Source of the DNA: a virus
Virus record (IMG/VR): IMGVR_UViG_3300030412_000377
Location: 1 to 35,095 of that record
Length of the DNA: 35,095 nucleotides
Direction: 5' to 3' (one strand)
Position 1 is the first letter of the stretch. Each line of letters opens with the position of its first letter. A model generated the notes under the pieces. It had not been told where the DNA came from, did no database searches, and saw nothing but the letters and a program-made list of their open reading frames with translations. The position numbers were made by a program, and so were the translations under genes. Shown here piece after piece: positions 493 to 23,044 of the stretch.

Positions 493-1638
493 TTACCCGA
501 AGATACGCTGTGCAATGCCGAGCGCTGTTTCACGATCTACAGAGCCAAGACGATTGATGAACGAGAGCTTAAGACCTGTTGTCCAACTTGCACGTCGAAC
601 CCCAATTCGTGAGGCATTTATTAGCTCACGTGGACCCACCGTCGCCGACATGTTGCCCTTGTCGAACGCTTTACGAATTTCAGTGGCGAAGTCAATGATC
701 TTCTCAGCGTCGGGACGCATTAAGCTGGCTTGACTCACCAAGACCGAAATTTCTTGCTCTTTCGGCATGTAATCGACGTGCTCTACAATCCCAAATCGAG
801 AGTAGTTGGCTGCATTACCGATATTCGTACCTACGTAGAGCGCATGTTCATCACCAGATCCATTTGTATTGCCTGTCGCGACAAAGCGAAAGTTCGGATG
901 TGGCTTAACAACTCGCCATTCAGGGGGCGCTTCTTTAATCACCAGTGACTTACCTTCCAACACAGGCTGATAGACTGCTAGAATGCTGGCATGTGCAAAG
1001 TCATACTCATCGGCGTTATACAACCAGCCATTCTTCATCGCTAGGGCAAGTGGACCTGGCTCGAAGTAAGTGCCTTCTGCGTTCGCCAGCGTTTGACCAA
1101 CGATGTGAGACTCTTCGGTGTTGGCTGTGTGCTGAACGCGAAAGTATGGACGGTTTGTGTAATGGGCAATTTGTTCAAAGATGGTAGATTTACCAACCCC
1201 TGCGTGTCCCCATAAATATGTTGGGATTGCGAACTCTAAGCCCAATAAGACCGTCTTCAAAAGCTCAATACTGAAAATGTAATTCTCATCGGCTTCTGGG
1301 ATCATATCGGCATCGCCAGCGGTTTTAAAGACTCTAATTGGAATCCCTTCGCCTTTGCCGTTGAGTGCTGCTTTAACCTTGCCAAGACCGAAGACTTGGT
1401 GCATCGGCTCCATATTGTGATCTTCTTTTGAGAAATCCATCACTTTAGCAGCAACGCTCATTTTGGTCTTTTCAGACTTGGCCGCAATTGCTTCTTTCGC
1501 CTTGTCGCTAAATAGCTCGGCTTCTGGATATGATAGCTTGTACTCTTCCAGACTGACTTCTGGATGGAGTTGGCTCAAGTGAAGTTGTACGCTGTGAATT
1601 TTCGCCCCACAAATCTCGCAAGTAATTTTTTCAGACAT
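493..1638 (-). CDS. MoxR/CobS-like AAA ATPase with N-terminal zinc finger
   Basis: 381 residues. A small zinc-finger-like motif opens the protein (C7, C10, H20, H25), a fusion also seen in phage proteins commonly labelled CobS or porphyrin biosynthesis protein. The AAA core has a Walker A GHAGVGKST at 144-152, a Walker B-like WLYNADEYD near 205-213, and a sensor-1-like segment with ATGNTNG. It should be a hexameric ATPase that remodels a target through a VWA partner, which is encoded immediately upstream (the 1757-3874 gene). The start ATG follows a clear GAGGGGAAC ribosome site. A cobaltochelatase role is unlikely because no cobalamin gene is present. The MoxR-VWA pairing is solid from sequence, but the cellular target is not known. 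Confidence 0.85.
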   Translation of the reverse strand: MSEKITCEICGAKIHSVQLHLSQLHPEVSLEEYKLSYPEAELFSDKAKEAIAAKSEKTKMSVAAKVMDFSKEDHNMEPMHQVFGLGKVKAALNGKGEGIPIRVFKTAGDADMIPEADENYIFSIELLKTVLLGLEFAIPTYLWGHAGVGKSTIFEQIAHYTNRPYFRVQHTANTEESHIVGQTLANAEGTYFEPGPLALAMKNGWLYNADEYDFAHASILAVYQPVLEGKSLVIKEAPPEWRVVKPHPNFRFVATGNTNGSGDEHALYVGTNIGNAANYSRFGIVEHVDYMPKEQEISVLVSQASLMRPDAEKIIDFATEIRKAFDKGNMSATVGPRELINASRIGVRRASWTTGLKLSFINRLGSVDRETALGIAQRIFG

Positions 1639-1708
1639 AGTGTTCCCCTCTATTTCTATTTAATGTGTTTGATAACGTTTTGTTATGTTGTATATGATAA
1701 GCGACTAG

Positions 1709-1735
1709 AAGCGGTAACACAATAAGTTACCGCTT
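1709..1735. repeat. Perfect 10-bp inverted repeat
   Basis: AAGCGGTAAC, a 7-nt loop (ACAATAA), then GTTACCGCTT, in the spacer between the VWA gene and the AAA gene. There is no T-run on either side, so it is not a standard terminator. Its right arm overlaps the 18-bp operator-like site at 1723-1740, so it may be a regulatory hairpin or an extended binding site. Confidence 0.6.
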
Positions 1736-1740
1736 ACTTA
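1723..1740 (-). promoter_or_regulatory. Operator-like 18-bp palindrome, site A
   Basis: On the minus strand TAAGTAAGCGGTAACTTA, followed in register by a -10-like TATTGT. It keeps the outer arms TAAGT...ACTTA of the repeated element but diverges in the centre. It lies about 85 bp upstream of the AAA ATPase start and could give that gene a promoter separate from the VWA gene. Confidence 0.45.
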
Positions 1741-1756
1741 TTTCAGGTAAGTTGAT

Positions 1757-3874
1757 TTAGTCGAGCATTACACGTCTTAGCTGCTCCATTAATGTAGTTG
1801 GTAATGAGGACACGTCATTCAATACCGCATAGTCTGGGTAGTATCGCTTAACCACGTCCGTCTCGATGCCAATCCCAAATATATCAATCCCAACTCTTAT
1901 GAACTTTTTAACAGTTTCCTTCAAGTGTCTGTCCTGCGCGTTCATATCCCCTCTTGCCGCTGGCTGTCCGTCTGACAGTACGAATAGAACTCGGCGCTCA
2001 TTGCTCTGCTGTAGAAGGCGCTCGCAAGCATACTCCACGCACTCCCCATCTAAGTTACTTGAAGCGTCGATGGCGTAAGGCGTCACAGCCATGCGCTTTT
2101 TCTGTTCGGGTCCGAACCGCTCGCCATACGACTTGAATACTGGCATGTAGATGCGATCACTGCGAGAGTAGGTTCTCCCCATTTTCATCTCTTCCTCGTT
2201 TATTCTCTTTCTGTCTTCCGCTCTTAAGTTGGGTGACTTAGTGGTAAACCCCAATATTTCAAAGTCCACATTGACGCGACTTAGCACCTGCGACATAGCG
2301 TAGCCAGCTTCCATCGCTCTATTGAGTCGTGAGTTCGACCGCATTGATCCCGACAAGTCAATTAACACAGTTACGGCGACGTCTTTGGTCTTGCCCATCA
2401 CTTCACGTTTGCGGAACACGCGATCATCACCTGTCTTAAGCTTGAACAAGGCGGATGAGTTGACGCGACCATTTCTTCGTCCAGGCTGCCAGCGTGAGCG
2501 CGCTTTGGCCAATATCATTCTTTCTAGGTTCTTTTGAAGTGGGCCGACCACGTGACGCACCTTGTCATCCAGCTCTTCCAACATGCCATCTCTAAAGGCT
2601 CTCATTTCATCGTCGTATGGCGCGATAACGTCAAATTCTTTCGTGTAGACCAAGTAATCCGCACTCTTTGTTTCATCGAGGGCGTCTCGACTGATCGCCA
2701 TGCCGGCGGTATCATCAAAACCCTCTCCACTCACTAACTTCTCAAAGTCCTCAACAGAAATGGACTTCACTTCTTCGGACTCATCTTCGCCCCCAGACTC
2801 AAATTCAGATTCTTCCTCAGATTCTTCCTCTTCATCGTCGGACTCAGATTCTTCCTCTTCATCGTCGGACTCACCTTCACCTTCATCGTCGGACTCAGAT
2901 TCTTCCTCTTCATCGTCGGACTCACCTTCACCTTCACCAGACCCACCTTCATCATCAGACCCTTCCGATTCGGGTTCTTCTTCCGATTCGGGTTCTTCTT
3001 CCGATTCGGGTTCTTCTTCCGATTCGGGTTCTTCTTCCGGCTCAGACTCGCCCTCAGACTCATCCTCGCCCTCAGACTCGTCCTTGTCAGATTTGGTAGA
3101 GATACTACCCTCCTCGTCTTCGCCCTTTTCGCCTTTGTCTTCGTCGGACTCACCCTTACTACCGCCGTCTCTCGTTGACTTGGTTCTTTCTTTTGGTTCA
3201 GGCTCAGACTCAGACTCAGGCTTCTCTGGCTTCTCTGGGGCGATTGCTTTGTGAATTTCGATGGCGACAGATAACGAATCGCTGGTAGACGACACGTCGG
3301 CTATTTTCTTGCGAAGGTCGTCGCCTATTTTGTCAGTAAACTCAGGAATCAGTGGCCACTTGTCACTCATATAATCAACAAATACTTTTTGGCCAGACCA
3401 CGCTCTGATCGCTGGCACAAGTAGCGAACCCAACACTTTGTCTCTATCGCCCGCTGCAATTGCGCCTTCGACCGTTGGCGTCGTGTACTTCTCTAAGAAG
3501 AAGTTACCGACATTGTCTAAGTTGGTTGCAGAACCTTTAAACCGCTTAATCATGCTCTTTTCAACAAACGTGTCTTCGACCATGTTTGTTATTTCTGCAA
3601 CGCCTTTTCCGTATTTAGCTGATTTGGATAGGACATCAAAGTCTGAGAACATCAAGTGACCAACTTCGTGATCTAAGAAGCCATTAATGGCATTAATTAA
3701 ACCTTCGCTTGCTGTGTCTGGTATGTACGGCAGATTGACGCGCTGTGGAACGCCTCTTATTGATTCAACGTAGGCTGATGAGCCGCGTTGCGTAACTACG
3801 ATACCTCTACCTGATAAGATTCTCGTTACTTTTGATATTGACTCTCTCAATACATTGATGTCTAACTCAGCCAT
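1757..3874 (-). CDS. CobT-like VWA-domain protein with long acidic linker
   Basis: 705 residues. Residues 1-210 form an N-terminal domain with an HEVGHL motif (about 69-74). About 215-380 is an extremely acidic, low-complexity linker of Glu/Ser/Asp repeats. The C-terminal 200 residues are a von Willebrand A domain with the metal-ion-dependent adhesion site DLSGSM at 506-511 and a later VLSDGQP. This is the architecture of CobT-type partners of MoxR/CobS AAA ATPases, and the AAA gene follows on the same strand. HEVGH resembles a zinc-metallopeptidase HExxH motif; whether it is catalytic is open. The start ATG follows a GAGGAGAT ribosome site. The substrate is unknown; a chelatase role is not supported by any neighbour. 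Confidence 0.82.
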   Translation of the reverse strand: MAELDINVLRESISKVTRILSGRGIVVTQRGSSAYVESIRGVPQRVNLPYIPDTASEGLINAINGFLDHEVGHLMFSDFDVLSKSAKYGKGVAEITNMVEDTFVEKSMIKRFKGSATNLDNVGNFFLEKYTTPTVEGAIAAGDRDKVLGSLLVPAIRAWSGQKVFVDYMSDKWPLIPEFTDKIGDDLRKKIADVSSTSDSLSVAIEIHKAIAPEKPEKPESESEPEPKERTKSTRDGGSKGESDEDKGEKGEDEEGSISTKSDKDESEGEDESEGESEPEEEPESEEEPESEEEPESEEEPESEGSDDEGGSGEGEGESDDEEEESESDDEGEGESDDEEEESESDDEEEESEEESEFESGGEDESEEVKSISVEDFEKLVSGEGFDDTAGMAISRDALDETKSADYLVYTKEFDVIAPYDDEMRAFRDGMLEELDDKVRHVVGPLQKNLERMILAKARSRWQPGRRNGRVNSSALFKLKTGDDRVFRKREVMGKTKDVAVTVLIDLSGSMRSNSRLNRAMEAGYAMSQVLSRVNVDFEILGFTTKSPNLRAEDRKRINEEEMKMGRTYSRSDRIYMPVFKSYGERFGPEQKKRMAVTPYAIDASSNLDGECVEYACERLLQQSNERRVLFVLSDGQPAARGDMNAQDRHLKETVKKFIRVGIDIFGIGIETDVVKRYYPDYAVLNDVSSLPTTLMEQLRRVMLD
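2967..3038 (-). repeat. Four perfect 18-bp tandem repeats coding the acidic linker
   Basis: The unit GATTCGGGTTCTTCTTCC (plus strand) is repeated four times and encodes the hexapeptide repeat EEPESE of the VWA protein linker. Looser repeats of an approximately 27-bp unit containing TTCCTCTTCATCGTCGGACT lie beside it at about 2810-2935. The region is coding and could change length by slippage. Confidence 0.9.
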
Positions 3875-4783: not shown

Positions 4784-4975
4784 ATGACCTATTCTGGCTT
4801 TTTCACAACGGAAGAATTATTGTCGCGATATAAGATCGCCGCGCGTACGCTTAATCGATGGCAGCATGTGAAGCGAAACAAAGTTGGCGAGCTATTTCCA
4901 AAGCCCACTCTTCCGGGTGATGGTGGATATAATAGATGGTCTTACGAAGACATCGAGTCTTGGGAACGGGGCTAA
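4784..4975 (+). CDS. Excisionase-like small HTH protein (AlpA/MerR-type)
   Basis: 63 residues from ATG 4784, chosen over the in-frame ATG at 4760 because GGAGAG sits at proper distance before it and because 4760 lies inside operator site D. The sequence TTEELLSRYKIAARTLNRWQ followed by YNRWSYEDIESWE fits a winged-helix AlpA/MerR-type fold used by phage excisionases and recombination directionality factors. It is next to the integrase but convergent with it; the two stop codons overlap by 3 bases. Likely role: directing excision at induction. A small transcription activator is the alternative. Confidence 0.68.
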   Translation: MTYSGFFTTEELLSRYKIAARTLNRWQHVKRNKVGELFPKPTLPGDGGYNRWSYEDIESWERG

Positions 4976-6180
4976 ATAACCTTCCCACTCCCCACAATGC
5001 CCTCAATCTGATAAAACAATCGCGTCAACGCCTCTCTCTGCTCCTTGACGTAGGTATATTGGTCGTACACATCCTTCATCCCACCCAGCTTGTGCGCCAA
5101 AATAATCTCACAAATGTCCGGCAGCGTGTGTTCGGACAATTTAGTTCTCGCCGTTCTTCTCAAGTCATGCGGCGTCCAAGGGCTCATCACCTCCCCCATC
5201 TTCTTCGTGATGTAGTTGTCAAAGCTATCCACAGCGTCTCGCACCGTTGGACCACTAAAAGGCTCGCCTGTGCTGTCCGACACAAACACCCACCTTTCCT
5301 TGCCAGATAGCGCAAAGGCCAACTTCAACAAAGGCACTATCTCATCGATGATTGGGCGAACAATCAGGCGACTGGTTTTGCTGATCTTCTCAGGCACAAC
5401 CCACACCTTTTCATCCAAATTAAAATGCTCTTTTTCGCTCAGCCGCAACTCAATCATCCGACACCCCGTCAGCAAGACCAGCTTGTACATGATAATCTTC
5501 TTTGTGGTGACCCTTGTGCCGCGAAATGCTTGCCAAAGCCAGCGAAGTTCGTCGTCGTTCAACGTTCGCCTTATCACGCGCTTCTCAATTTTAAAGTCGA
5601 CCTTTGCGGATAGCGTGGCGACAGGGTTATTCTGGACGACATTCATTCTATGCGCCCACATATAATACTTCTTGATGTTGGTGATGATTCTTTGGGCTAT
5701 GCTTGGCACTTTGGCCGCGATACGCTCGATCTCAGAAACCCAAGACAAAATTGGAATGTCCCCAGGTGGCACTTTCCCTATATATGGGAAAACGTGTATC
5801 TCAAACGAGGCGAGTTGCTCCGATGGTCTTATCACTTCGCCCCACCGGTTCTTCTTAAACCAGTTGGTGAACGATGTCTCGAAAGACTCGCGCGTCACGA
5901 CCTTATCCTTCTCCGCCGCCTTGACCAGTTTTGGGTTGTGGCCTTCGTCCAATAGACCGCGTATTCTCAGACATTCGTTCCTAGCCTGCTTAAGTGTGAA
6001 TCTGGGATACGTTCCCAGTTTTATTCTGCTGGGTTTGCCATCGTATCGATAGCGCATTTGAAATGTCAGCCTACCTTTCGGAGACACCCTCACACTCAGT
6101 CCATCTCTGTCTGACTTCACCAACTCGCCTTCTCTTGGTCTATTGGCGTTAGCCTTAAGCCAAGCGTCTGTTAATGCCAT
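4972..6180 (-). CDS. int: Tyrosine recombinase (P4-type phage integrase)
   Basis: 402 residues when started at ATG 6178-6180. The frame is open back to 6255, but MALTDAWLKA is the usual start of this family and a GGGGA ribosome site precedes it. The N-terminal part is a DUF4102-type arm-binding domain (GLSVRVSPKG, then KLGTYPRFTLKQAR). A SAM-like core-binding domain follows. The catalytic domain carries LTGCRMIELRLSE (first Arg), PHDLRRTART (His-x-x-Arg), AHKLGG (second His) and the nucleophile Tyr in DQYTY. It catalyses site-specific insertion and excision of the phage. Repeats upstream probably form attP. All catalytic residues are present, so it should be active. Confidence 0.93.
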   Translation of the reverse strand: MALTDAWLKANANRPREGELVKSDRDGLSVRVSPKGRLTFQMRYRYDGKPSRIKLGTYPRFTLKQARNECLRIRGLLDEGHNPKLVKAAEKDKVVTRESFETSFTNWFKKNRWGEVIRPSEQLASFEIHVFPYIGKVPPGDIPILSWVSEIERIAAKVPSIAQRIITNIKKYYMWAHRMNVVQNNPVATLSAKVDFKIEKRVIRRTLNDDELRWLWQAFRGTRVTTKKIIMYKLVLLTGCRMIELRLSEKEHFNLDEKVWVVPEKISKTSRLIVRPIIDEIVPLLKLAFALSGKERWVFVSDSTGEPFSGPTVRDAVDSFDNYITKKMGEVMSPWTPHDLRRTARTKLSEHTLPDICEIILAHKLGGMKDVYDQYTYVKEQREALTRLFYQIEGIVGSGKVI

Positions 6181-6194
6181 GTTACGTCCCCAAC

Positions 6195-6488
6195 GTGTAC
6201 CAAAAATTCTGTCGTTTCTGGTCATTCTACATTTGGTACACACTTTGGTACACAAAAAAATGGCTAGGGGTGTCTTGATGTTGCCGGTGGTTGCTGAGGT
6301 GGGTTTTGCTGAGGTGGGTTAGAGCGGGGGTTTGGGAGGGGTTTTGGCCGGTGATGGCTAGGGTTGATATTTCACCACGTCATTTACATGCGCAATGATG
6401 GCAATATTGCGGAGATTGGCTATGCTCCTTGTGTTGAGGGGTGTTGTCATTTTGTTCCTTTAAGATTTGGTACACAATTTGGTACACA
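6195..6488. other. Putative attP region with integrase arm-site repeats
   Basis: TTTGGTACACA occurs at 6232-6242, 6244-6254, 6466-6476 and 6478-6488: two pairs, each with 12-bp period, all in one orientation. An inverted copy GTGTACCAAAA lies at 6195-6205. The pairs bracket about 210 bp that contains an exact 15-bp tandem repeat (TTGCTGAGGTGGGTT at 6291-6305 and 6306-6320) and TGGCTAGGG twice (6261, 6355). The region is directly upstream of int and holds no gene. Paired direct repeats flanking a core are typical of arm-type integrase sites. The crossover core itself cannot be identified without the host attB. Confidence 0.55.
6316..6341 (+). other. G-quadruplex motif on the plus strand
   Basis: Four G-runs of 3, 5, 3 and 4 separated by 7, 3 and 1 bases match the canonical G3+N1-7 pattern. 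It is in the putative attP/int upstream region. The motif is a sequence fact; folding is not shown. Confidence 0.55.
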
Positions 6489-17590: not shown

Positions 17591-17995
17591 CTACACCTGC
17601 CCTTGCATGAAATATTGCTTTGCCGCATACACAGTCACAGCCACAACGCTGGCGAGAGTCGCCCAAATAGTGCCGGTTGCAATATTCGACGCAACGCCAG
17701 TCCAAAACTCTTTGCGCGCGCGCTGCTCTGCGATAAAGTTGTCCATAAATTCATGATGCTTTGCGTGATCTTGGGGGTTGAGCCTCGCAATCGACAGCTT
17801 CAAATCGTCAATCAAATTAATCATTTCCTTTTGCATTATTTCTTCCGTGGCCATGTGTCCTTCTAAGATGCGAGATAGCCCGCCGTTCTCCATATCCATT
17901 CTTCGTTGCGACAAGCGGAGATCGCTCACTGCGTCGCTCAGCTCTCTAAGGTTTTTAAGAAGTGGGTCTGGCTTTGTTGCGTTAGGCAGTTCCAT
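17591..17995 (-). CDS. Single-pass membrane protein, holin candidate
   Basis: 134 residues. The first 90 are helical and probably coiled-coil (LLKNLRELSDAVSDLRLSQRR, MQKEMINLIDDLKLSIARL). One hydrophobic segment follows at about 97-122 (GTIWATLASVVAVTVYAA), then a short tail. This N-coil plus C-terminal membrane anchor layout occurs in phage holin-like or accessory lysis proteins. The gene is close to the M15 endolysin and immediately before the papain-fold peptidase. It is the first gene after operator site F with its TATAAT, so it likely starts a transcript. Alternative: a membrane anchor unrelated to lysis. Confidence 0.55.
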   Translation of the reverse strand: MELPNATKPDPLLKNLRELSDAVSDLRLSQRRMDMENGGLSRILEGHMATEEIMQKEMINLIDDLKLSIARLNPQDHAKHHEFMDNFIAEQRARKEFWTGVASNIATGTIWATLASVVAVTVYAAKQYFMQGQV

Positions 17996-18067: not shown

Positions 18068-19369
18068 CTAAGCTTTGGTGGTTAGGTAGCGCTCCGAATC
18101 CTCTCGGTAATACCATTTACCGCCACTTACCGCGAACTCCTCGCCTACTGTAATGTAGTCCCACGCGGTCGCCTTGGTGTGAGTGTCGACGTTCGCCAGC
18201 GCAAATCCAGTGTGCCACTTCTCGCCCTCGCAGTAGCTTGCAGACCGTTTGTGACCCGCACCTAACTGATGCCACTCGTACGCACCATAGACTGGTGAGA
18301 ACATTGGCCACACTTGATGCTGGTGATGATGACCGTTGGCACCGGGCAATCCCATGTTTCTAGCGTGAGGAAAGTGGTGGAACAAAATACTGTCCCAGTA
18401 GATTTTGTAATTGTTGGCCAATTGCTTGTTGTGCTCTGCCTTCGTGAAGGTGGCCAAGTCTGCTTTTGCAATGTAGTTGATCTCAAACTCATCTAGCCCA
18501 AGAAGCTTCCCGATAGTGAACCCGTGAAGATCGCTGAGAACCGCTCTAAGCGCGGGTGTCGCGTCCGCAAGCTGTCTGAGCAGTCTAGCTTCGTGATTGC
18601 CCTCAATGAAGTCAATTTGCGTCTCTGGGCAAGCTTCACGCAATGGTTTGAGGATGTGTTCGTGAGCGTACTTGATGCGACCGACTACATCCCACTCTCT
18701 TGGGTCAACGCCATAACTGCCGAACTCAGGTAAGTCAAATATGTCGCCATTCAAAACGATCACATCTGGCTGCACTCTTTTGGCTGTGTCAATCAGAACT
18801 CGAAGGAAGAATTGATCGATCTCAATGTCGTGCAAATCGGAACAAACCAAGACCGTCTTAAAACGCCTTGTGTTCTCTCTAATGTACTTATCCGACCAAT
18901 CACCCCGCGACGCTGTCAACTCTCTGTAGTGATCCACTGAGGCGTGCTTAGCAATGCTTCTTTCCATCGTTGCCTGCTGACGGGTCAAAACTAAGCCCGC
19001 CTGACGCTTGAACTCCATAAATGTACCGAAGTATCGATTCCAAGTGGCGTCTGAAATGCTTGAGTTGTTGCTAAAGTAGTTCCTTGTGATGAACTTCTCC
19101 GGGTCGATGTCTCTAACCCGATGTAGCTCCTCTATACAATCGTCAGCCGTCCACGATCCCATATATTTACGTTCGTTTTCCGATAGCGGAGATACTGCGC
19201 GATTGATAAGACTTGGTACGTCCTCTCCAAGCCCGAATCTAGCTCTAAGCTTTTTAGCTTTAATTCGTACGGTGCGGTCAACAATACCAAGCTCATCAGC
19301 AACGTCCGCAACGCGGGGGAAGTTTTCAAGATCGTTGTATACATTGGCAAATTTCTCTACTTCATTCAT
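18068..19369 (-). CDS. Metallophosphoesterase with N-terminal helix-turn-helix region
   Basis: 433 residues. Residues 10-45 form a helix-turn-helix (PRVADVADELGIVDRTVRIK). About 74-126 (DDCIEELHRV, ISDATWNRYFGTFMEFKRQAG) resembles the DNA-binding repeat associated with homing endonucleases. The catalytic domain has SDLH (D178, H180), NGDIFD (D209), EGNHE (257-260) and later His clusters (FHHFPHA and GHHHQH), the two-metal calcineurin-like phosphoesterase set. It should hydrolyse a phosphodiester, perhaps of nucleic acid given the DNA-binding modules. Its start overlaps the endolysin stop by one base (TAATG). Such proteins are known in phages, but the target here is open; a nuclease is my preferred reading. 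Confidence 0.8.
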   Translation of the reverse strand: MNEVEKFANVYNDLENFPRVADVADELGIVDRTVRIKAKKLRARFGLGEDVPSLINRAVSPLSENERKYMGSWTADDCIEELHRVRDIDPEKFITRNYFSNNSSISDATWNRYFGTFMEFKRQAGLVLTRQQATMERSIAKHASVDHYRELTASRGDWSDKYIRENTRRFKTVLVCSDLHDIEIDQFFLRVLIDTAKRVQPDVIVLNGDIFDLPEFGSYGVDPREWDVVGRIKYAHEHILKPLREACPETQIDFIEGNHEARLLRQLADATPALRAVLSDLHGFTIGKLLGLDEFEINYIAKADLATFTKAEHNKQLANNYKIYWDSILFHHFPHARNMGLPGANGHHHQHQVWPMFSPVYGAYEWHQLGAGHKRSASYCEGEKWHTGFALANVDTHTKATAWDYITVGEEFAVSGGKWYYREDSERYLTTKA

Positions 19370-19833
19370 TATTTGTTTATTCCAGAAACGTATTTAGTTG
19401 ACGTGCCTAGCTTGACCGCCGTCTTCTCTTTGTTAGTTGCGGTCATTTGAGGAATGGCAACGTGAACCCAGCGTCCGTACTCTTGAATGAGTTCGCTATA
19501 GCCATAGTCGCCCATGTTGTTCTTGATCCAGATCGCCAGTTGATAGGGCGTGAGGTGAGTGCAGGTTATGTCTGCTGCCATACCCTCCAGGTGAAACGAA
19601 GTCTTGCTGCCGCCTATCTTGGCGTTGAGCACTGAGTTTCTAAACCCAGACGAGACTCGAATTTTCACTTCGGTATTTAGCTCATTTGAGATACCGATCT
19701 TGATAGCCTGTAGAAACCAAGACAATCGAACTAGGTTTCTGGACTCTGATTCGTTTGGCGTGTTGTCGATGCCGTTCTTCACTGCAAAGTTGGAGTGAGT
19801 CAGTTCTTGTTTTGAGAAATTTGGCGCGTACAT
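19369..19833 (-). CDS. Endolysin, peptidase M15 family
   Basis: 154 residues from ATG 19831-19833, which has GGAG at correct distance; an in-frame ATG at 19845 lacks one. The zinc peptidase motif SFHLEGMAAD (H81, D88) and WVHVAI (H124), with SSGFR before them, are those of the M15_3 D-Ala-D-Ala-type cell-wall peptidases used as phage endolysins. It would cut peptide cross-links of the host cell wall at lysis. No signal peptide, so it needs a holin for export; a candidate lies downstream at 17591-17995. It is directly after operator site G. Confidence 0.85.
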   Translation of the reverse strand: MYAPNFSKQELTHSNFAVKNGIDNTPNESESRNLVRLSWFLQAIKIGISNELNTEVKIRVSSGFRNSVLNAKIGGSKTSFHLEGMAADITCTHLTPYQLAIWIKNNMGDYGYSELIQEYGRWVHVAIPQMTATNKEKTAVKLGTSTKYVSGINK

Positions 19834-19852
19834 TGAAAGCTCCATAGGTTAC

Positions 19853-19891: not shown

Positions 19892-20617
19892 TTACTTGGT
19901 TTTGATTAGATTGATGAGATGTCCAGATAGATCGTATCTACCCATCACGATTTGTCTGACGTTTTGGTGGTGCGTGTTTTGGTAACTTTCGCCAAAGGTG
20001 AAGATATTTAACCAATGACTGTCTCTACTTTCGTCCCCATTGTCGTGCGGCTGACTGCCTACCATGTGACCGAAAGTTCCCGATATTTGCATGACCGCAA
20101 ATATCATCGCCACTGGTAACGCCCATGCCCAGAACACCAGCGGTGGGCTAATCGCAACCAAGGCTAACGCATATAGAAATGATATTTTATAGTAGTGCTT
20201 GTGTAGCCAATTGTGACGCTTATCTCGTATCAAGTCTTTTATCAACACCAACGGCGTCTTGAGCGACCAAGGTCCGAATATCCATGCCTTGATTGCGCTG
20301 TTGTGTGGGTAGTAGGGGTCTTTTCCCTCTATGTCTGAGAAAGCGTGATGCGCCCTATGCAGACCACACCAGCTAATAGAGCTGCCGACGCCCGACAGAG
20401 TACCGGCTATCATCAAAAACCACCACCAGAAACCACTGGTCTCGAACGCCCGGTGACATATCATTCTGTGAAAGCCAATGGACATTCCCACATTCATAAT
20501 GAAAAAGACCACCAGTGCCAAACCAACGCCAGGCCAGGAGAAGAAAAAGATCAGACCCACCGCGGCTATGATATGCGCCAAGCCAGCCATCAACTTTATC
20601 TTTCTAAATCCAAACAT
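19892..20617 (-). CDS. Fatty acid (acyl-CoA type) desaturase
   Basis: 241 residues with four or more hydrophobic segments and the three histidine boxes of membrane di-iron desaturases: HRMICH (50-55), HRAHH (87-91) and QNTHHQN (about 213-219) preceded by FTFGES; additional His at 184 and 201. It should insert a double bond in membrane fatty acyl chains. It is shorter than most bacterial delta-9 enzymes (300-380 residues) but keeps all boxes. Its ATG overlaps the stop of the upstream tail gene (TAATG), so it is translated with the late genes. This is an auxiliary metabolic gene, possibly altering membrane fluidity during infection or in the lysogen. Origin by transfer from a host is likely. 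Confidence 0.9.
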   Translation of the reverse strand: MFGFRKIKLMAGLAHIIAAVGLIFFFSWPGVGLALVVFFIMNVGMSIGFHRMICHRAFETSGFWWWFLMIAGTLSGVGSSISWCGLHRAHHAFSDIEGKDPYYPHNSAIKAWIFGPWSLKTPLVLIKDLIRDKRHNWLHKHYYKISFLYALALVAISPPLVFWAWALPVAMIFAVMQISGTFGHMVGSQPHDNGDESRDSHWLNIFTFGESYQNTHHQNVRQIVMGRYDLSGHLINLIKTK

Positions 20618-21138
20618 TAGACGACCTTGTAGAATAGCGCGAGGTGCGAATCTTCGGCGCCGCCAGTTATTTGAACGGAATCTTTGATGTCGAACTTGAT
20701 GATCTGATGTTTGTCGTAGGCCGTACCGTCGATGATCGTACCGTCTTGCGTCACCAATAGTCTTTTGCCGAGCACCTCCGTTAGCGTAATTGTTTCGCCC
20801 GCAGCCAACGGTACAACGCTACCGTCCCACTCCACATCGCCACCTTTGCTACCTATGCAATAGAATCTACTGGGTGCAAGGGAGGCCATATTCAACCTGC
20901 CTTCTGAGAACTCTGTGGAAAAGCCAACGCCAAAGCGCTCACCAACGCTATAGTTGGCCAAAAGCGTCATATCAAGCGTATAGACATTGACCGACCCATG
21001 AGTTAGAAACTGGACGCCGCCTGTGCGGTCGAGCATCGTCTGTACCGTATGTAGGTTACCCCTGTCAGAGTCAGCATAACCGACATAAAGACCCTCGGAC
21101 TCAACGCTGTATACGGTTTTAAAAGACCAGTTAGACAT
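20617..21138 (-). CDS. Hypothetical tail-fibre-region protein
   Basis: 173 residues, not recognised. Predicted beta-rich with many Gly, Thr and Val (GLYVGYADSDRGN, LLANYSVGERFGVGF); no membrane segment. It is joined by TAATG overlaps to both the preceding gene and the desaturase, within the series of tail-fibre genes, so a structural or receptor-binding role is plausible. Confidence 0.58.
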   Translation of the reverse strand: MSNWSFKTVYSVESEGLYVGYADSDRGNLHTVQTMLDRTGGVQFLTHGSVNVYTLDMTLLANYSVGERFGVGFSTEFSEGRLNMASLAPSRFYCIGSKGGDVEWDGSVVPLAAGETITLTEVLGKRLLVTQDGTIIDGTAYDKHQIIKFDIKDSVQITGGAEDSHLALFYKVV

Positions 21139-21494
21139 TACAACACAACCTCGCTACCTTGCTGAGTTTCAACCTCGGTCACAGATGTCCACTCAACACC
21201 AAATAGGGGAAGTAACTCCTCTGGCATTTCTGAGGCCCGCGAGTTCAATTCGCTATTCCACTCGTGCTGAGCTTGAGTAGAAGCGCCGATAATAAGCTGA
21301 CGCATCTCTGCCTTGAGTTCGTCGACCGTGCTAAGACCCGCCGCGTACTTCTCCAGAAGGGAGGTGTCAACCGACAACTGTCGAATGTGGTGAGGGCGAA
21401 GGTTGAGACCCTCGTCCGTCGCCGTGTAGGTAACGCTAATCGTGCTGTGCTTTAGCGTGTAACCATTAACTTTAAATGTAAATTCTATAAACAT
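21138..21494 (-). CDS. Hypothetical tail-fibre-region protein
   Basis: 118 residues, not recognised. A beta-rich N-terminal half (FIEFTFKVNGYTLKHSTISV) and a helical middle (LLEKYAAGLSTVDELKAEM). Possibly a small fibre assembly chaperone, to judge from its size and its place after fibre genes, but no family resemblance is claimed. ATG follows GGAAGCAGC. Confidence 0.55.
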   Translation of the reverse strand: MFIEFTFKVNGYTLKHSTISVTYTATDEGLNLRPHHIRQLSVDTSLLEKYAAGLSTVDELKAEMRQLIIGASTQAQHEWNSELNSRASEMPEELLPLFGVEWTSVTEVETQQGSEVVL

Positions 21495-21503
21495 GCTGCT
21501 TCC

Positions 21504-22088
21504 TTATGGTGTGAAGGTTACGGTGCTCGTACCCACACCATCCCATTGAGATATATTTCCTGTATTCCATCGCCATATTGTCGACGAACTGAACTGCGCG
21601 TGAGTGGCCGATGCTGAGTTTAGCGTTCCCTTACCTTGAACATTTATGCTTGTAAAGAGCGACTTGGCGTGAGTGCCTGCCAAAACAACGACGAACCAAT
21701 AGTCGGTACTCTTGGCCGCATAGTGCTCATACAAGCCCTGTATCGTTATGCCGTCAAAGGTGCTTGCCACCCGCGAGCCAATCTCTCCCCCACTGTCAAA
21801 ACCCGTTCTCGACAAATCTAGGTGCTTTCCGTTAGCCGCGTAACCTCTCAACGTCCAAATCGAACCGTTGGAGGCGGTGCCTTCTGTTACTGTGATAACG
21901 GGCAATCGCGTTGCGCGATAAAAGTCACTCACCCCAATGAGACCGCTAGTTGGAATACTCTCATTCTCGACAATATCCGGGACGTAGACGCCACCTCTAT
22001 AATATTCATCGATGCCGACGGGGTCGCTGCCACCAAACTCGCTTTGAATGTCGTTAAGGGAAATGATTCCAGAGAGTTGAAGTGCCAC
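21504..22088 (-). CDS. Tail protein with phage fibre-type N-terminus
   Basis: 194 residues, starting at GTG 22086-22088, which overlaps the S74 fibre stop as TAGTG. The N-terminal 60 residues (SGIISLNDIQSEFGG, EYYRGGVYVPD, IPTSGLIGVSDFYRA) match a motif common at the start of phage tail and baseplate-associated proteins. The rest is beta-rich with Ser/Thr/Gly. It is likely displayed at the tail tip with the neighbouring fibre. Confidence 0.65.
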   Translation of the reverse strand: MALQLSGIISLNDIQSEFGGSDPVGIDEYYRGGVYVPDIVENESIPTSGLIGVSDFYRATRLPVITVTEGTASNGSIWTLRGYAANGKHLDLSRTGFDSGGEIGSRVASTFDGITIQGLYEHYAAKSTDYWFVVVLAGTHAKSLFTSINVQGKGTLNSASATHAQFSSSTIWRWNTGNISQWDGVGTSTVTFTP

Positions 22089-23044
22089 TACCTGCCCTCC
22101 AAAACCTTGATGCGATCCGTCAACTCTTTAATAGCCTCTATCAGCAGACCAACCATATTGCCATAGGCGACGCCCAAGCAGTCTGGATTGGTATCGATGA
22201 CCGCCTCCGGCAGTACACTTTGAACCTCCTGCGCCACAACGCCCGTTTGTCTCTTTGTTTTGATGTCCGTTCTGTCAAAGGTGTAGCCATTGAGCTGACC
22301 GACCTTCCATAGCGCATCATCAATAATTCTAAGATCGGTCTTAATTCGTCTATCCGAGTTGCCCGACACGTTGCCAACGGCCAAGAAGTCGCCTGAGTCT
22401 GCATACATCGTCGCTATGGTTGCATTTGTCACAGCGCCCGTCGCGTCGTTAGACTTTCCAGAGAAAATCATAGTCGCTTCGGTAGTCGCATCGGTGTTGA
22501 CGGTTATGCCGCCCGTGTTGCCCGCCTGATCTGCCGAGCCACCCTTGTGATTGAAAGTTACACTGGCGCCGCCATCAAGCGTAAGTGCGACGCCACCATT
22601 TCCACGACCCGATTCCACAACGTCGTCTGTTGAAATTTCAGTATCCACACCTCCCCAAGTCACTCCGTCTAGTGATGCGGCATCTACACCCAGCGCGTCG
22701 ATAACGGTCTTCGTGGGCGTGGCGATCTCATCGAGCGACTCTTTCGTTAGGGAAACTCGTATCGTGTGTGTGCCGCCGCTGAGTGTGATGTTGGCGGCGG
22801 GGCTTATGTCGTAAGTCGTACCGTCCCAAGTCCACGTGTCGTTTCTAGTGATGGTATTGCCAGTCACATTGTACGTTCCCTTGCCGGATGCCTTTACAAT
22901 GTCGTTCCCGTCCTCAATGGCATAGTAGACGAATTGACCATCTGTATAAGCCTTGGCCACGTCGATGCGCCTCAACGTTGCTCCAGATAGCGTTATAAGA
23001 TCGCCCGTTCCCGTACACGTCTCTTCGATAAAATTTGCAAGCAT
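22088..23044 (-). CDS. Tail fibre with C-terminal S74 intramolecular chaperone
   Basis: 318 residues. The first about 210 are repetitive, beta-rich and Gly/Thr/Asp-rich, as in trimeric fibres. The C-terminal about 100 hold the peptidase S74 domain: SDRRIKTDLRIIDDAL, then LNGYTFDRTD, TGVVAQEVQSVLPEAV and a terminal helix ending in IKVLEGR. In this family the domain trimerises the fibre and then cuts itself off just before the Ser-Asp. Likely a receptor-binding fibre. It starts a transcript: operator site H with TATAAT lies 28 bp upstream, and GAGGAATAATAA precedes the ATG. Confidence 0.85.
   Translation of the reverse strand: MLANFIEETCTGTGDLITLSGATLRRIDVAKAYTDGQFVYYAIEDGNDIVKASGKGTYNVTGNTITRNDTWTWDGTTYDISPAANITLSGGTHTIRVSLTKESLDEIATPTKTVIDALGVDAASLDGVTWGGVDTEISTDDVVESGRGNGGVALTLDGGASVTFNHKGGSADQAGNTGGITVNTDATTEATMIFSGKSNDATGAVTNATIATMYADSGDFLAVGNVSGNSDRRIKTDLRIIDDALWKVGQLNGYTFDRTDIKTKRQTGVVAQEVQSVLPEAVIDTNPDCLGVAYGNMVGLLIEAIKELTDRIKVLEGR

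Follow-up and report, generated by a model that had tools for sequence, protein, structure and literature searches.

A glutamine-box membrane desaturase homologue in a slot between tail-tip and lysis genes of a siphovirus and other phages

Why does a tailed phage carry a gene for a membrane fatty acid desaturase directly ahead of its endolysin gene, and what would such a protein do late in infection? The question is raised by positions 19,892 to 20,617 of a 35,095-nucleotide stretch of viral DNA, referred to here as the window (positions 1 to 35,095 of IMG/VR record IMGVR_UViG_3300030412_000377), which is part of a record of 41,583 bases. Genes for a tape measure protein, a J-like tail protein, an S74 tail fibre, DnaB, primase, ligase, PhoH, an integrase and CobS/CobT-like proteins are present on the record. 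Based on the J-like protein, tape measure and S74 fibre together with the replication genes, we regard it as a siphovirus with a lambda-like tail. The integrase gene (window positions 4972 to 6255; phrog_1, E 3e-50), which lies inside the replication/CobT region, suggests a temperate life style. The CobS- and CobT-like genes (phrog_249 and phrog_1576) occupy positions 493 to 3874, and their order is common to the window and to L075, a 108-kb relative. L075 has retained the gene order J/S74, M15, phosphoesterase, PhoH, DnaB, primase, CobT and CobS, and a 116-amino-acid protein with a hydrophobic N terminus is encoded before the M15 gene; this syntenic relative contains no desaturase.

The desaturase gene and its neighbours

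The open reading frame from 19892 to 20617 (minus strand, ATG start) was recovered at exactly these coordinates and is a real gene for a protein of 241 amino acids. Its product, classed from family match, boxes and model as a Q-type membrane fatty acid desaturase homologue, matches the Pfam family FA_desaturase (PF00487) with 65.9 bits (E 6.5e-18), above the curated gathering cut-off of 29.7 bits. Together with the SCD1-like fold of its model, this match supports, at the level of the fold, the identification as a desaturase made in an earlier note on this DNA. A Pfam scan of the protein returned PF00487 only, without a cytochrome b5 domain, and the score against the NCBIfam DesA family desaturase model NF049918 (35.4 bits) was below its curated cut-off of 400 bits. 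Four hydrophobic segments are apparent in the hydropathy profile. No electron-transfer partner gene was seen near the desaturase, and a second desaturase (an H-type partner) is absent from the 41.6-kb record, which is possibly a fragment.

Upstream of the desaturase lie tail genes (S74/long tail fibre, J protein and tape measure). The nearest of these on the minus strand encodes a tail fibre protein with a C-terminal S74 intramolecular chaperone (22088 to 23044; Pfam and PHROG). It is followed by g21504 (21504 to 22088), a tail-tip protein of 194 amino acids with the conserved N-terminal motif EFGGSDPVGIDEYYRGG, whose homologue in contig L116 matches a tail-fibre PHROG, and by g21138 (21138 to 21494), a small tail-tip module gene of 118 amino acids, both on the minus strand as well. 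The last gene before the desaturase, g20617 (20617 to 21138, minus strand, 173 amino acids), ends in TAATG, so that its stop overlaps the desaturase ATG, and an AAGG is found ~9 nt upstream of that ATG. The earlier note had described this start as coupled to a tail-region gene. The overlap stands; the label given to g20617 is one of position, as its product matched neither a Pfam family nor a PHROG and is predicted to be a bicupin. In a fold search, its model resembled HutD/PA5104 (Z 13). No conserved histidine for metal binding was seen in the alignment of g20617 proteins, and no relative in isolate phages was found in the phage collection. Despite lacking such histidines, this HutD-like bicupin is regularly encoded in the tail-tip modules of many phages.

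The gene following the desaturase, 46 bp after its stop, encodes an M15-family peptidase and putative endolysin (19369 to 19845, minus strand; PF08291, phrog_894). No other protein encoded between the tail genes and the endolysin in the window spans the membrane more than once. Near the endolysin, the only candidate holin seen, and a weak one, is the 134-amino-acid product of 17591 to 17995 (minus strand), which has one C-terminal hydrophobic segment and no family match. Scans for promoters and terminators gave signals at or below shuffle expectation. The late tail/lysis position claimed earlier is supported by the tail genes upstream and the M15 gene downstream, and it is conserved in other phages, as described below.

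Histidine boxes, predicted fold and relatives

The earlier note had considered all three histidine boxes intact. This is correct for box 1, HRMICH (H50 and H55), and box 2, HRAHH (H87, H90 and H91), but not for box 3, which reads Q213-N-T-H216-H217 (QNTHH instead of HxxHH), with glutamine 213 at an SCD1 histidine position. With the additional histidine H184, the protein retains eight of the nine expected histidines. All members of the clade share this glutamine (GESYQN[T/S/N]HH), which excludes a sequencing error, and the histidines at the eight other ligand positions are invariant among 23 viral homologues. An AlphaFold model of the protein (mean pLDDT, 92.6) could be aligned with mouse and human SCD1 (4YMK and 4ZYO) over 236 to 239 residues, with a Z score of ~24 and an rmsd of 2.7 to 3.3; the values for 4YMK were Z 24.0, 236 aligned residues and an rmsd of 2.7. 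The next matches in the fold search, AlkB among them, scored far lower (Z 8 to 9).

Viral contigs were scanned for the pattern GExYQNxHH, which yielded 37 stretches. The GESYQN clade, 40 to 56% identical to the window protein, accounts for ~25 of the contigs bearing the pattern, many of which are near-duplicates, so that these counts are not independent. Nearly all contigs of this clade contain at least one further desaturase adjacent to the Q-type gene, either a canonical GEGWHNNHH enzyme on the same or the opposite strand or, in T4-like contigs, the other members of a tandem array. Solitary copies were seen in the window record and in L131, whose contig ends soon after the gene. Several T4-like contigs carry tandem desaturases with differing third boxes: three in L113, four in L110, and five each in L115 and L136. 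These arrays of overlapping genes (L115, 6530 to 10187; L136; L110, 3395 to 6336; L113, 6924 to 9122) are located between a UvsW-type helicase region and a late sigma factor gene. In other contigs, desaturases were observed near Asp/Arg hydroxylase or radical SAM genes (L121, 114 to 2923; L002, 3986 to 7869; L135, 1 to 12489; and L003, which is Pelagibacter phage Mosig), and the gene cluster is only partly present in Mosig.

In a tree with FastTree support values, 13 nonredundant Q-type sequences formed one clade (support 1.0), and a second clade comprised the HNNHH sequences paired with them (0.999). With a single exception, the viral sequences clustered together (0.88), outside the sampled bacterial sequences. 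Given the small bacterial sample, "phage-only" here means that the clade was not found in cells in this analysis. A bacterial QNNHH group (L086 to L108), mainly from Bdellovibrionota and Myxococcota genomes, was also observed. It falls elsewhere in the tree, outside the viral clade, so that shared descent of the glutamine is unsupported; judging from this topology, the histidine-to-glutamine change in that group apparently arose independently.

Cellular relatives proved distant. Scanning 84,980 genomes with window peptides gave no relative. The pattern FGExYQNxHH was found in 23 bacterial stretches, mostly from Bdellovibrionota and Myxococcota, whose full-length matches were 24 to 34% identical; the best match in 284 genomes of one phylum was ~32% identical, and plasmid matches were ~25 to 32% identical. 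The closest bacterial homologues were thus ~26 to 34% identical, and no full-length bacterial homologue above ~34% was found in the genomes and plasmids searched. In the phage collection, only Mosig and two Acinetobacter phage records were matched. The latter two, labeled "Acinetobacter phage MD-2021a" (CAKLQH020000002.1, our L004, and CAKLQF020000003.1), were dismissed since they resemble bacterial chromosome contigs (trpB, trpC, btuB and baeS).

The slot between tail-tip and lysis genes

Relatives of g20617 were found at 28 viral loci, directly upstream of a desaturase or of lysis genes. At most of them, a tail fibre gene (S74 or other) is followed by g21504, a gene for 64 to 119 amino acids and g20617, and then by either one or more desaturases or lysis-type genes. 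Desaturases follow g20617 in L109/L132, L116/L129/L143/L141, L134, L123/L181, L124/L126 and L131, and also in L167 and L170, both of which are truncated loci. The same slot lacks a desaturase in L171 to L175, L177, L182 to L184 and L186 to L188. An internal virion protein is encoded in L109 and baseplate wedge proteins in L134, which indicates at least podovirus-like and myovirus-like backbones besides the siphovirus of the window. Across roughly half of the shorter sequence, L109 and L134 are 82% identical at the nucleotide level, a sign that the module has been transferred.

Presence and absence of the desaturases are cleanly separated. The interval between g20617 and a gene for a 77-amino-acid protein is 1507 bp in L116, where it holds exactly two desaturases, and 21 bp in L173, whereas the endolysins and the 77-amino-acid proteins of the two contigs are 100% identical. 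The same difference applies to L116, L132 and L134 (1507 bp) versus L172 to L175 (21 bp), with near-identical downstream genes. The g20617 proteins of L116 and L173 are only ~31% identical, which implies that the exchange included the tail-tip module.

The desaturase does not follow any single lysis system, as it precedes lysis genes of three or more kinds (a GH108 endolysin in L116, M15 in L143, and a holin with a T4-type lysozyme in L126), and is missing from contigs whose GH108 genes are nearly identical. A strict association with lysis genes was therefore rejected, and the proposal of the earlier note that the enzyme might tune the membrane for lysis is weakened. A strict association with one tail module was rejected as well: g21138 of the window is closest to its counterpart in L171 (58% identical), whose module has no desaturase, and the desaturase is thus not bound to a particular kind of tail. 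The most fitting description is that of an accessory gene with a preferred slot. The second use suggested earlier, lysogen fitness, is unlikely because the gene is translationally coupled to one expressed late, even though the phage carries an integrase gene.

Function and comparison with known desaturases

We favor, with a probability of roughly 0.6, the reading that the gene encodes a small diiron acyl desaturase of a phage-specific Q clade, made late and altering acyl chains in the inner membrane of the host. The product would be an integral-membrane enzyme of the acyl desaturase superfamily, synthesized late through translational coupling to the tail-tip module. It may insert double bonds into inner-membrane acyl chains, as acyl-lipid or acyl-CoA, with electron donors and oxygen supplied by the host, and membrane properties would then shift during virion assembly and release, with a possible benefit to lysis, assembly, adsorption or another step. 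In most relatives, the Q-type enzyme is probably paired functionally with the adjacent canonical HxxHH desaturase, and in the window phage it might work alone or with a host enzyme. The loss of one metal-ligand histidine counts against this reading, as do the lack of a nearby electron-transfer gene and of an H-type partner on the possibly incomplete record. An octopus front-end desaturase with HXXXH, HXXHH and QXXHH boxes is active in yeast (PMC3826146), and by this precedent a QxxHH box would be compatible with activity; it is, however, the only activity precedent for QxxHH and comes from a distant eukaryotic family with a fused cytochrome b5.

The altered third box might instead belong to an active enzyme that is not a simple desaturase, and that hydroxylates, conjugates or further oxidizes the acyl chain or uses a different lipid. 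The membrane diiron superfamily includes the alkane hydroxylase AlkB, the tandem arrays of up to five desaturases with differing third boxes are what a multistep pathway predicts, and L121 and Mosig have a gene for an Asp/Arg hydroxylase in the vicinity. We consider this unlikely, as the fold is far nearer to SCD1 than to AlkB, and the first box and the distance between it and box 2 are those of acyl desaturases. The lost ligand, the usual pairing with an HxxHH desaturase and, in the window, the lack of any other multi-pass membrane protein from the tail genes to the endolysin are also what might be expected of a catalytically weak or dead protein that serves as the subunit of a partner enzyme or as an accessory acting on the membrane (a desaturase regulator or holin-like helper). 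The eight invariant ligand histidines would be needless in a noncatalytic protein, however, and solitary copies exist in the window and, as far as its contig reaches, in L131. L116, L126 and L134 also have candidate holin or membrane genes downstream. We regard such a weak or dead accessory as quite improbable.

A host-derived gene hitchhiking with tail-module recombination, useless to the phage, would account for the presence/absence polymorphism of the slot and for the desaturase-free relative L075. It would hardly be expected to keep its position in several phage backbones or to form a phage-only clade 40 to 56% identical to the window protein. For Q-type pairs with unsaturated dS, dN/dS was ~0.10 to 0.13, showing purifying selection at the codon level among the relatives, where selection was measured (dS of the window gene is saturated). 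Neutral or transient cargo is therefore very unlikely. The earlier note had named assembly error with host-identical sequence as what would overturn its proposal. The gene overlaps the stop of a phage gene, its GC3 (0.574) equals that of its neighbors (0.54 to 0.58), and the g20617-desaturase junction recurs in other contigs; a host-identical origin was rejected, with the best bacterial and plasmid identities at ~34% or below. Junction recurrence, GC3 and low bacterial identity exclude an artifact or recent host capture in practice, and the chance of an assembly chimera or host contamination is negligible.

A tentative extension of the favored desaturase reading, which we think rather unlikely to hold in full, is that the Q-box enzyme and the canonical desaturase (in T4-like contigs, up to four others) act in series to make acyl chains that the host cannot, and that the pair moves with tail-tip modules as a late, surface-linked remodeling function. 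If so, the pair would shuttle between podovirus-, myovirus- and siphovirus-like phages, and a late lipid step could block superinfection or virion readsorption, or ease release. Contigs that differ in desaturase presence with nearly identical lysis genes make the role of lipid desaturation in late infection directly testable.

Among cellular enzymes, the window protein is closest in kind to SCD1 (4YMK and 4ZYO) and the cyanobacterial DesC delta-9 desaturases, with which it shares the fold (Z 24), the HxxxxH and HxxHH boxes, H184 and the distance of 32 residues between the first two boxes. It differs from them in its QNTHH third box, and so departs from the HxxxxH/HxxHH/HxxHH pattern; it is ~19% identical to SCD1 and, at 241 amino acids, shorter than its cellular relatives. 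The front-end (delta-5/delta-6) desaturases share the QxxHH third box (Q213NTHH). They have an N-terminal cytochrome b5 with HPGG, which the window protein lacks, and box 1 is HxxxH rather than HxxxxH, which places the window protein outside that family; its fold and sequence match the delta-9 enzymes.

Viral desaturases as such are known. Delta-9 activity has reportedly been shown for those of cyanophages. These cyanophage lipid desaturases (Roitman 2018, 10.1038/ismej.2017.159; cited in PMC7300359 and PMC11480375) resemble the window protein in being phage-encoded acyl-lipid desaturase proteins with a presumed effect on the membranes of the host. Desaturases also occur in a Nitrospirota virus from Lake Baikal (PMC7678222) and in freshwater pelagimyophages (PMC7029224). 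The only annotated isolate-phage relative recognizable in the phage collection, the FA_desaturase of Pelagibacter phage Mosig EXVC030M (MT647606), is 26.5% identical to the window protein, with a canonical HKNHH box and a different gene context. Arctic cryopeg and sea-ice viruses carry several desaturase genes in one genome, with two viruses having five apiece, and those from the cryopeg form clades without cellular members (PMC7300359). The histidine motifs are described as conserved, except in one protein with "other" motifs, and no Q-box clade or tail-lysis slot is described there, which sets them apart by description from the present group. In view of these published viral desaturases (PMC7300359; Roitman 2018, as cited there), calling the gene an unusual auxiliary metabolic gene, as was done earlier, is only partly right; within the searchable literature, what looks new is the clade with the Q box and its slot between tail and lysis genes. 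Among the top-ranked papers on lysis and tails, one mentioned desaturases, twice and in passing. Set beside the known systems, what began as a one-off annotation becomes a recurrent arrangement, in which a phage-only clade with a defined ligand substitution occupies one slot in otherwise different phages and offers a natural set of cytochrome b5-free QxxHH enzymes for probing the role of the glutamine.
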